This document shows, in pieces, positions 42,331 to 44,677 of a stretch of 64,000 nucleotides of DNA. The position numbers were made by a program, and so were the translations under genes. The stretch spans positions 1 to 64,000 of the forward strand of contig NZ_JACJJP010000007.1 of assembly GCF_016900095.1 (NCBI RefSeq), given 5' to 3'. Within the stretch, counting starts at the first letter, position 1. Each line of letters starts with the position of its first letter. Source of the DNA: Gemmiger formicilis (lineage in GTDB: Bacteria > Bacillota > Clostridia > Oscillospirales > Ruminococcaceae). The notes beneath the pieces were generated by a model, which saw only the letters and a list, made by a program, of their open reading frames with translations, did not search any database and was not told where the DNA came from.

Positions 42331-43657
42331 AAACAAAAAGCCCCGGCGCACCTTGGTGCGCCGGGGCGGTACTACTTGATTGGAGTCATAGCCTCATACC
42401 CTGTATTCGTTGTATGCGGATCATGGTTTTCAGAACTTTTTGGATTTGATCCGCTCCGTTGCGAAGGTGATTTCAGTGATCCGATCGATCGGATTTTTCA
42501 GGGTCTGCCATTGGATCTTGGGATTTGCGCTTAAAAGAGGTTGGAGTGTTATCCCGGGATCTGCGTAAGCAGGTTCATCAATCTTGCCTTCCGTATCTCA
42601 GGTTGGCCGGCCATTCAAGTTTGTTTCGGTTTCCATCTGACGATGTTATCTCCGGATTCCCTCGGAAAGGAACCTTCTACAACATCTTATGGGTTACGAT
42701 TCAATTTTGTCTGGTTTGATTTTCTGCGGTCTGTACGCAAAACCTTTTGCGAGGGGATTTCCTTTTCGAAGCGTTTGTTACCAAAGAACGATTTGAACAG
42801 ATTTTGCTGATCACTGAGTTTGCGGGTAAGGGTTTACTGCCAGAGGATGCATCCCTCTTTATCAACTGTACATTGGCGTTATCTCCCACTGGTTAGATGA
42901 ACGTAGATCGAACTTTTAAGGCTGAACCTTTCGGTTCAAACCATTCGCATCTAAGATACTTCCGGCCGTTATCTTGTTCCCATCTTATTCCTGAACTTAC
43001 TTTCTTAGTGCTTCTCTTTCTTTTTAAGGAAAGATTTATTCGGAAAGTTTTTGTCGGAATTTTTTTACTTGCTCAAAACCTTTAAGCTTACGGGCCTAAC
43101 GATTTATTTTGCCGTTTCGGTTTCCTTTCGGAATCCTTTTACCTTCGGGAATCACCGGCCATGAGGTCAGACTTTACGTTCCTTTCATCTAATCTATTCG
43201 AAACGCTGGGGTCCTAACTTTGACGGGCCCTGGGACTGCTGATCTCTATTATACGAACCGATCATCGGTTGATTACTTCTTTTACAGGTAATGACCTGCG
43301 GCTGTCAATGTGGTTCGTTTTTCTTCAGCAGGCCCAGGCCCGCCGGTGATGAATGGGATCTTTGAAGTTTGCCATCGGGCTGAGCCTCCTTCCTTACGAA
43401 TCCTGCCGGCCTAGCCTTTGCACGTCTTTCAAGTTCTCCGATGGCTCTTCGGCTTCCTCTTTACGGAGTCCCTACAGTGTTCTCTTTGAAGCTGCTTTCC
43501 CATTTTCGGAACCATCTGGTTCTGAACCGGGTGTTCATACTTTAGAGAAATCGTCTGTAAGCTGTCGAAAGAGTATCCGCGCCTTTTTCGGTTCCTTTTG
43601 AAAGTGGCTGTCTTGGAACTTTCTGTGGTTCCTTATCTCCGGCTGTTTTCTTTCTGT
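42331..43657 (-). ncRNA. Candidate large structured non-coding RNA (about 1.3 kb)
   Basis: This stretch has no credible gene on either strand in a window that is otherwise almost fully coding, and it is clearly richer in A and T. On the minus strand it starts at an extended -10 promoter and ends at a strong terminator. The minus-strand RNA is purine-rich with many local hairpins: UGAACC-GAAA-GGUUCA (42923-42938), CAGGU/ACCUG (43285-43298), GAACC/GGUUC (43509-43522), CGCAAA/UUUGCG (42736-42751) and AUCCG/CGGAU (42479-42494). Short modules recur: AACCGAAA four times and GAUAAC four times, with CCGGAGAUAA twice. Size and style recall ornate RNAs such as GOLLD, ROOL or OLE, but I cannot match it to one. 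Confidence 0.65.
42335..42367 (-). terminator. Terminator of the candidate large RNA
   Basis: GCCCCGGCGCACC (42340-42352) pairs perfectly with GGTGCGCCGGGGC (42355-42367). On the minus strand TTTTTGTTTG follows. No protein gene ends before it on this strand. Confidence 0.88.
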
Positions 43658-43663
43658 GATTAT

Positions 43664-43692
43664 ACTATAGCACGGGGGTCCGGTCCCGTCCA
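43664..43692 (-). promoter_or_regulatory. Promoter of the candidate large RNA
   Basis: TGGACG (43687-43692), 17 bases, TATAGT (43664-43669) with the extended -10 TG two bases before it on the minus strand. A second overlapping TATAAT (43659-43664) adds to the signal. Confidence 0.55.
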
Positions 43693-43790
43693 TTCGCAGA
43701 AACGCCAAAGCTGAAATGAAATATTTGTTCATGTTATGGATGGATAATGCATTGACGGATGTGGTATAATAAATATGTCCGGTGTACCTA

Positions 43791-43841
43791 AAAACGGGAT
43801 GCAGCCCTTGAACCAAGGGTCTGCATCCCGTTTTTTTGATT
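43791..43841. terminator. Bidirectional terminator upstream of the large RNA
   Basis: AAAACGGGATGCAG (43791-43804) pairs with CTGCATCCCGTTTT (43821-43834), and an inner CCCTTG/CAAGGG stem extends it. It has A on the left and seven T on the right. It ends the DUF2752 transcript and isolates the RNA locus. Confidence 0.88.
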
Positions 43842-44211
43842 ATAGACCGCAGAAATTGCGGGCAACACCCCAGATCAGCAGTGCGGCAATGTACACGACC
43901 GCCGTGATCTGCCAGGTTTTGCCGGGGCGGGTGTCTTCCCACCAAAAACGCCACAGGATCGCCGCCAGCAGCGGTGATGTGGCCAGCAGAAAGGGATTGG
44001 CGGCAAAAGCGCCTGCCCAGTCGCCCCGCAGAAGGTGCAGCAGCAGGGTTGTCACTCCGCACCCCGGACATTTCAGCCCGGTCACCAGCCGGATGGGGCA
44101 GGGAATCCCGCCGAAGCGGGCGGCAAACGCCGCGTATACGGCCCCGATACCGCATACCAGCGCCAGGGTGCGCAGTTTGCGGCGCTTAGCCGGCGTAATG
44201 GTTGACAGCAT
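43840..44211 (-). CDS. DUF2752 membrane protein
   Basis: The 123-residue product has three or four membrane helices and the DUF2752 signature C-P-I-R-L-V-T-G-L-K-C-P-G-C-G-V-T-T, whose conserved Cys residues suggest a redox or metal role. The function of the family is unknown. ATG at 44211 overlaps the end of the DUF4234 gene by 26 bases, so the two are coupled. The pair of a zinc-ribbon DUF4234 protein with a DUF2752 protein is common in Clostridia. Confidence 0.85.
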   Translation of the reverse strand: MLSTITPAKRRKLRTLALVCGIGAVYAAFAARFGGIPCPIRLVTGLKCPGCGVTTLLLHLLRGDWAGAFAANPFLLATSPLLAAILWRFWWEDTRPGKTWQITAVVYIAALLIWGVARNFCGL

Positions 44212-44677
44212 CCTGGAACAGGGCCAGGTTGATGATCTGGAACCCGAACAGGGCAATGATCAGGTTGATGATGCCGCTGTCCGCCGTGCGGTTGAGGTAA
44301 GCCACCTTGCGGCCCATCACATAGGCCCAGTAGATACCGTAAATACCGCAGGTGACCAAACTCAGCAGGAACACCACAATGCCGCTGGGGGCGCTGGCGT
44401 CGCCGGTCAGAGCGTTGATCTCATCGTTGAGCACCACAAACCAGTAGATGCCGTAGATGCCGCAGGTGATGATGCTCAGCACGATGGCCAGGGCCACGCT
44501 GCGGGTGGGGCGCTGGTAGCCGGGCTGGTAGGCGTTGTACGGCGGGGGCGGGGCCTGTTCATAGCGGGGACCCTGGTCGTTGTTGGGGGCCGTGTCTTCG
44601 GGGATGGGCTGGCCGCAGGTGGGGCAGAAACGGTCATTGTCGGCACAGGAAGTGCCGCAGCGGGGACAGGTTTTCAT
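44186..44677 (-). CDS. Zinc-ribbon DUF4234 membrane protein
   Basis: A 163-residue protein with an N-terminal zinc ribbon (C-P-R-C-G with C-P-T-C-G, residues 4-21), a Pro/Tyr-rich linker, and a DUF4234 membrane domain. That domain has a repeated helix motif: I-I-T-C-G-I-Y-G-I-Y-W-F and L-V-T-C-G-I-Y-G-I-Y-W-A. The function is unknown. It precedes and overlaps the DUF2752 gene and follows argS by 58 bases on the same strand. Confidence 0.88.
   Translation of the reverse strand: MKTCPRCGTSCADNDRFCPTCGQPIPEDTAPNNDQGPRYEQAPPPPYNAYQPGYQRPTRSVALAIVLSIITCGIYGIYWFVVLNDEINALTGDASAPSGIVVFLLSLVTCGIYGIYWAYVMGRKVAYLNRTADSGIINLIIALFGFQIINLALFQDAVNHYAG

Follow-up and report, generated by a model that had tools for sequence, protein, structure and literature searches.

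The window that we analysed, a stretch of 64,000 nucleotides from Gemmiger formicilis, very probably carries a real, conserved and apparently undescribed RNA gene. Its predicted ends lie on the minus strand at 42332..43658, as judged from a conserved 5′ block (CACAGAAAGAAAA..GCCGGAGATAAGG) and a 3′ block found in homologues, with the first base near CACAG; the predicted length of the window copy is approximately 1.33 kb. Comparison of the homologous sequences indicates that the structure rests on compensated long-range helices, and that the RNA contains Shine–Dalgarno-led minigenes spanning 2 to 16 codons. The surprise lies in the compensated structure and the constrained minigenes occurring together, and not in the size of the RNA or its repeated modules. 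Tentatively, we prefer to read it as a free-standing structured RNA in which ribosomes on the built-in minigenes would set the fold.

A predicted minus-strand transcription unit

A preliminary description of the locus had pointed to an AT-richer block with a minus-strand RNA unit that has its own promoter and terminator. The composition is borne out, with a GC fraction of 0.42–0.50 inside the block and 0.57–0.70 in the flanking windows (500-base windows). The predicted unit consists of a promoter at 43664–43698, an RNA running from approximately 43658 to 42332 and a terminator stem at 42367–42340, and both of the elements proposed to delimit it are conserved in homologues.

Promoters were extracted from 34 homologues, the 35th row being ended by a contig edge. 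All 34 contain the upstream box TGCGAATRGAC (43688..43698, minus strand), and 33 have TTG seven bases further up, giving the layout TTG-N7-TGCGAATRGAC-N17-TATAGTATAGTCACAG. The sequence TGGACG at 43687–43692 is at the −35 distance. The −10 hexamer TATAGT, with its TG extension, is found 17 bases from the −35 (43664..43669, minus strand) and reads TATAGT or TATATT in 34/34; the extended −10 element, TG-C-TATAGT at 43664–43672, is present and conserved. The box followed by a TATA box 15–20 bases on has one occurrence in the genome of origin. A regulon sharing the promoter box was rejected, the sole other genomic box being situated in a 173-codon ORF.

The intrinsic terminator (42331..42367, minus strand; stem 42340–42367 plus U run) is a GC-rich hairpin, 95% paired with 72 compensatory cells. 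Beyond the other end of the RNA, a second strong hairpin (43790–43838), with T runs on either side by eye, separates the promoter of the RNA from the 3′ end of the DUF2752 gene (43840–44256, minus strand). It resembles a terminator and would insulate the RNA from read-through.

Distribution within the genus Gemmiger

A blastn search of 61 genomes with the block identified homologues in 33 of 35 Gemmiger genomes and in 0 of 26 genomes from outside the genus. Conservation in 33/35 genus genomes exceeds chance, and the two without a match are 68% (G014) and 82% (G030) complete. Among the matched genomes, all except two have the RNA as a single copy. A peptide-level pattern of ORF1, the 16-codon minigene described below, was run over 84,980 species, a collection from which the genome of origin is possibly absent, and found 33 stretches. 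Three of these stretches are from G. formicilis ATCC 27749 and two from strain DFI.6.10; besides Gemmiger, the record names among the 33 are Subdoligranulum (2), Oscillospiraceae (1), Faecalibacterium sp. UBA1360 (1) and Acutalibacter (L058). In the last of these, a contig assigned to Candidatus Acutalibacter stercorigallinarum, the genes next to the RNA are argS, racemase and metG, just as they are in Gemmiger, and the assembly is perhaps mislabelled.

Of 396 genomes of the family, 388 lie outside the genus, and none of these matched the peptide-level pattern; a 5′-end pattern with 3 mismatches likewise had no match in 379 non-genus genomes among 386. With strict filters, a core covariance model searched against 295 genomes of the order (294 of them others) had the genome of origin as the sole one among the matches listed. 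As far as these searches reach, the RNA would be a genus-level gene; a very diverged relative could escape them.

The total length of the homologues runs from approximately 0.5 kb (L034) to 1.5 kb (L017), and a size of about 1.3 kb is not the defining trait that it had been taken to be. Three blocks are shared, namely the 5′ end, a middle of approximately 220 bases and the 3′ end, and the intervening stretches are variable. Compact extra copies of approximately 0.5–0.6 kb occur in two G. formicilis genomes (L032 and L033 in G006, L034 in G027); they retain the promoter, ORF1, ORF3, ORF5 and the terminator, and much of the 5′ domain is absent from them. A diverged subtype (L035–L037) comes from three MAGs whose isolate names contain ‘Lapin’ (French for rabbit), and has the ORF1 MRYKDPIH(H/Y)R(R/Q)(V/A)WA(R/C) and the 5′ end CACAACAAAGAAA.

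Every 35-row count reported here excludes L031, which ends at a contig edge, and uses longer sequences of the same places (L039 and L038) in place of L021 and L027. The near-identical L011 was dropped for the 34-row analyses and the tree tests. ORF1 and ORF3 were located by regular expressions built from the same data.

Known RNA families and repeated modules

GOLLD, ROOL, OLE and HEARO have Rfam models. No Rfam family matched the block or 12 homologous loci at gathering score, and relaxed thresholds gave no plausible match, the best being chance-like (STnc320, E 0.16; FourU, E 0.15). Searches of 50,697 phage records and of plasmids found nothing, two pattern scans of viral contigs were likewise negative, and the suggested kinship with GOLLD, ROOL and OLE was not upheld by any of these searches. 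The tRNA matches of the window are >20 kb from the RNA locus. tmRNA has tRNA-like ends and a resume codon without a Shine–Dalgarno sequence; this identity was rejected on the lack of an Rfam match here and in the 12 homologous loci, and on ORFs that begin with AUG behind a Shine–Dalgarno sequence. A missing 6S RNA was rejected as an explanation because a 6S match lies elsewhere in the genome. Among open-licence PubMed Central texts, we found neither ORF1 peptide fragments nor a 21-base piece of ORF1 DNA, no text containing both Gemmiger formicilis and an RNA motif, and no report of minigenes in a free-standing structured RNA.

The preliminary description drew attention to short repeated modules and to a hairpin with a GAAA tetraloop. 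The hairpin, GAACC-GAAA-GGUUC, is present, and so are all copies of the modules in the window, with AACCGAAA four times, GATAAC four times and CCGGAGATAA twice in the block. The modules are, however, not conserved across homologues (AACCGAAA is missing from 27/35) and so are not a hallmark of the RNA; for the same reason we rejected them as functional modules. Four copies of AACCGAAA were reached in 0/500 shuffles when that word was taken alone, and some 8-mer reached four copies in 11.8% of shuffles. As an above-chance signal, the repeats are much weaker than the conservation within the genus.

Minigenes behind Shine–Dalgarno sequences

The statement that the block holds no plausible protein stands for proteins of normal size, but it overlooked short conserved ORFs with Shine–Dalgarno sequences. 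Six larger ORFs of 50–90 codons (five on the plus strand, one on the minus strand) were tested, and all are frameshifted or stopped in 2 or 3 of 3 close homologues; the ORF at 43353–43601 is intact in 1/3. With reading frames broken in close homologues, a decayed ordinary gene was rejected as the source of these larger ORFs.

ORF1 (43325..43375, minus strand; MANFKDPIHHRRAWAC) has 16 codons, lies within the best conserved block of the RNA and is open in 35/35 homologues. Nine bases separate its ATG from the Shine–Dalgarno sequence AAGGAGG (43385..43391, minus strand), which is found in 34/35 homologues and reads AAGGGGG in L033. In the three most diverged homologues (L035–L037), ORF1 starts exactly one codon later, with the frame kept. 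Across the 31 rows with the common start, to which the ten-codon test was confined and which leave out L035–L037, the tree gave 31 changes in codons 1–10, of which 20 were synonymous against 10.9 expected (P=0.0002). For codons 5–10 in 34 rows, 9/14 changes were synonymous (P=0.008), compared with P=0.70 and 0.999 in the shifted frames.

ORF5 (42372..42389, minus strand; MTPIK) ends four bases before the terminator stem, and its Shine–Dalgarno spacing is short. It has the form ATG ACT CCN NNN NNN stop, encoding MTPIK, MTPKK, MTPKM, MTPIM or MTPII, and MSPKQ in L029; the stop, as TAA, TAG or TGA, is kept in 34/35 homologues. Synonymous changes made up 13 of 28 against 5.9 expected (P=0.0004; shifted frames P=0.92 and 0.996). 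From these substitution patterns, both ORF1 and ORF5 appear to evolve as coding sequence.

ORF3 (42862..42873, minus strand) reads ATG TAC AGT TGA (M-Y-S) in the window, behind the Shine–Dalgarno sequence GGGAG (42883..42887, minus strand); GGAG is found in 31/35 homologues and a weaker AGGAA or AGGTA in four (L029, L035–L037). ATGTAC followed by an in-frame stop after 0–2 further codons is found in 35/35, in nine forms, and the chance of a stop so near is 0.13 per independent form. In 22/35 the minigene is only two codons long (M-Y). Because the Tyr codon is invariant even at its third base, an RNA-level constraint is possible. In L030, the ORF3 unit (AAGGAG..CTCCAATGTAC-stop) occurs twice, at 507 and 650 in the numbering of the extracted RNA, and in L010–L014 and L020 an additional ATGTAC unit, encoding MYYG or MYD, stands behind AGAGGG; minigene units seem to have been duplicated.

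Two further frames are candidates only. ORF2 (TPPN) was seen in 20/35 homologues, one of them (L017) doubtful, and ORF4, searched for with a final-Lys filter, in 25/35, with lengths of 30, 27 or 24 nt and three kinds of stop. Their synonymous tests were negative (P=0.74 and P=0.59, respectively), and neither was found in the window copy.

Compensated helices

A consensus fold was derived from 34 homologues, and its helices were counted against slid partners and shuffles (all coordinates are on the minus strand). The 5′ domain is closed by P0, in which CCGG at 43639..43642 pairs with CCGG at 43406..43409, directly before the ORF1 Shine–Dalgarno sequence. P0 is 100% paired over 34 rows, with compensatory changes to CCAG/CUGG in L009 and to CCGA/UCGG in L029 and L032. 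The P1 hairpin near the 5′ end (43615..43632) is 92% paired with 17 compensatory cells, compared with ≤51% pairing in slid versions. Four helices follow within the domain (43599–43604×43426–43431, 43566–43570×43461–43465, 43555–43561×43471–43477 and 43545–43549×43480–43484; span 43426..43604), with 80–91% pairing and 20–36 compensatory cells each, although the innermost stands out poorly, its slid versions reaching up to 74%.

The helix PL involves ORF1 itself. Its 5′ strand (43326..43344) takes in the final six ORF1 codons along with most of the stop, and its partner (43222..43241) lies approximately 85 bases on. The 18 pairs are 92.2% paired, slid versions reaching ≤56%, and five pairs have changed on both sides, for example GC:23/AU:9 and CG:23/UA:7. 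The first of these coincides with an Arg→Gln position of ORF1, where the base pair is kept and the amino acid is not. Inside PL (span 43255..43316), a helix (43307–43316×43255–43266) and a hairpin (43284–43299) are 90–97% paired. For the PL domain as a whole, slid versions are ≤44.6% paired and 0/500 shuffles reached the observed double changes; on alignment A3 the number of pair types was not above shuffles, 79/500 reaching it. These shuffles do not preserve the relatedness of the sequences. A local hairpin on the same ORF1 codons rivals PL: it was the choice of RNAalifold on the shorter alignment A3, and PL was the choice on the longer alignment and with other settings. Conserved codons and conserved base pairs, which had been set out as alternatives, were thus both seen, partly on the same nucleotides.

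Just 3′ of the ORF3 stop, a hairpin (42842..42858) shows 95% pairing, against ≤67% in slid versions, and has 37 compensatory cells. Adjacent to it, the 5′ strand of PR (42830..42841) has a partner at 42390–42401, directly before the ORF5 start, which PR would mask; PR is 86% paired (slid versions ≤49%), a weak signal in that 50/500 shuffles reached the observed pairing.

A covariation test over 822 columns, our own simplified version of R-scape’s tree-based null, found the terminator significant and every other helix at E>1. As the terminator alone was significant in the tree-based test, the evidence for the other helices rests on the local counts. Minimum free energy gave z −4.2 for the sense strand (30 shuffles) and z −3.7 for the antisense strand (15 shuffles); since the antisense is nearly as low, folding energy alone cannot single out the minus strand. 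The original idea of a structured RNA is retained in respect of its compensated helices and its lack of a normal-size protein, but not as a purely non-coding RNA, as ORF1 and ORF5 evolve as coding sequence and the frame of ORF3 is kept.

Genomic neighbourhood

Pfam identified the flanking genes as those for arginyl-tRNA synthetase (argS), an Asp/Glu racemase, methionyl-tRNA synthetase (metG) and a DUF2752 protein. argS is upstream and in the same direction in 21/33 loci found by the ORF1 pattern. The remaining 12 are extra copies or have too little upstream DNA, and argS is present in all non-extra-copy loci that reach approximately 800 bases upstream. The RNA keeps a single chromosomal position, on the downstream side of argS, and two genomes have extra copies besides.

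Downstream in the window, the racemase gene and metG run in the same direction as the RNA. The racemase gene is co-directional in 15 of the 18 loci that have it in reach, and metG is co-directional in 13 of 18 and opposed in five. The opposed genes (metG in five loci, racemase in three of these) are several kb off (L046, L049, L063, L067 and L070). The extra copies L032, L033 and L034 have no argS, racemase gene or metG nearby. Given the divided orientation of metG and the extra copies elsewhere, no one downstream gene is always served; together with the conserved promoter and terminator, the variable downstream genes favour an independent gene over a leader or 3′ untranslated region.

Discussion

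Our data are consistent with a model in which ribosomes load on the minigenes and terminate within a few codons, thereby opening or closing helices. As the last six codons and stop of ORF1 constitute one strand of PL, a ribosome finishing ORF1 must melt this helix and, from the usual ribosome footprint, would cover its entire 5′ strand. The local hairpin uses the same codons as PL, and whether ORF1 is translated should therefore decide which of the two folds forms. The RNA might then exist in two states that depend on the initiation or speed of ORF1 translation, as in leader-peptide attenuators. ORF3 has its own hairpin behind it and ORF5 has the terminator, and the output of the RNA would be exerted in trans or via the stability of the RNA itself. 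A bolder form of this model is possible, if doubtful: a ‘ribosome-operated’ stand-alone RNA with minigenes (down to Met-Tyr-stop) as its moving parts would be a translation gauge reporting in trans, the number and speed of the ribosomes on it setting the fold.

Other explanations account for parts of these observations. It is unlikely, in our judgement, that the RNA is a sink for ribosomes or peptidyl-tRNA, in which minigene ribosomes would leave, by termination or drop-off, within two to five codons and so, under some condition, lower translation capacity or sequester particular tRNAs, with the fold serving mainly to present and protect the start sites. Ribosome drop-off in early elongation reportedly occurs (PMC10192219), and the M-Y-only ORF3 of 22 homologues, its invariant AUG-UAC pair and its doubling in L030 would all suit a sink. 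So would the two-codon minigenes of axe-txe and B. subtilis ycbK, which passages of PMC8708949 describe as affecting expression in cis, upstream of a protein gene. A sink nevertheless leaves the 16 constrained codons of ORF1 and the compensated long-range helices unexplained, and an RNA that is single copy in all but two of the matched genomes would require very high expression. RNAIII and SgrS are dual-function RNAs, structured and regulatory with a short ORF, and the Gemmiger RNA could be another, with an ORF1 micropeptide and a remainder that pairs with target mRNAs. The position of ORF1 in the best conserved block and its purifying selection at the protein level fit such a function. We consider it decidedly unlikely, since ORF1 has 16 residues without a hydrophobic stretch, its second half is constrained by pairing and ORFs of two and five codons are hard to see as functional peptides. 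The Gemmiger RNA differs from RNAIII and SgrS in having several minigenes, one of two codons in many species, and an ORF end built into a long-range helix, and has no known target.

The orientation of the neighbouring genes bears on whether the RNA is instead a 5′ leader, or attenuator, of a downstream racemase–metG unit with ORF5 as its leader peptide. The co-directional racemase gene and metG of the window and of most loci agree with a leader, and a ribosome at the ORF5 stop, four bases ahead of the terminator stem, could block that stem; the opposed genes (metG in five loci, racemase in three) and the extra copies L032–L034, which have neither, appear to weaken the case, and we regard it as quite improbable. 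We hold it highly improbable that the RNA is purely non-coding, its ORFs being by-products of conserved structure. Helices are indeed compensated and the tail of ORF1 lies inside one, but the ten ORF1 codons outside that helix show the synonymous excess reported above (20/31 changes), the true frame of codons 5–10 and of ORF5 stands apart from the shifted frames, and the ORF3 stop is retained through nine forms. The coding tests contradict a non-coding RNA with chance frames.

The ribosome-set RNA that we favour has partial counterparts among known systems. Passages of PMC12286853 assign ROOL and GOLLD to phages and prophages, often close to tRNA islands, and the Gemmiger RNA resembles them and OLE, as presented there, in being large, structured, stand-alone, bacterial, obscure in function and without a normal protein. 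It differs from all three in having no Rfam match and in carrying conserved minigenes, and from ROOL and GOLLD in being chromosomal, next to argS and without a match in phage records. The trp and erm leader-peptide attenuators, as treated in parts of PMC8708949, have a short ORF with its own ribosome-binding site that overlaps one strand of alternative helices, and ORF1, whose codons are used by both PL and the local hairpin, may be a comparable case; the Gemmiger RNA, in contrast, is a stand-alone unit with a promoter and terminator to itself, and the gene that follows it is not constant. With the axe-txe and ycbK minigenes described in the same source, it shares an AUG, one codon and a stop behind a Shine–Dalgarno sequence, whereas the Gemmiger minigenes sit in an RNA gene without a protein gene.

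Overall, an RNA that matches no Rfam family is present in 33 of the 35 species genomes from Gemmiger, a genus common in the gut. The coexistence of helix compensation with protein-level selection on mini-ORFs, partly on shared nucleotides, challenges the habit of classing large bacterial RNAs as either coding or non-coding. The RNA represents a natural system for asking whether ribosomes on frames of two to sixteen codons operate a free-standing RNA, and the compact G. formicilis copies make it tractable.
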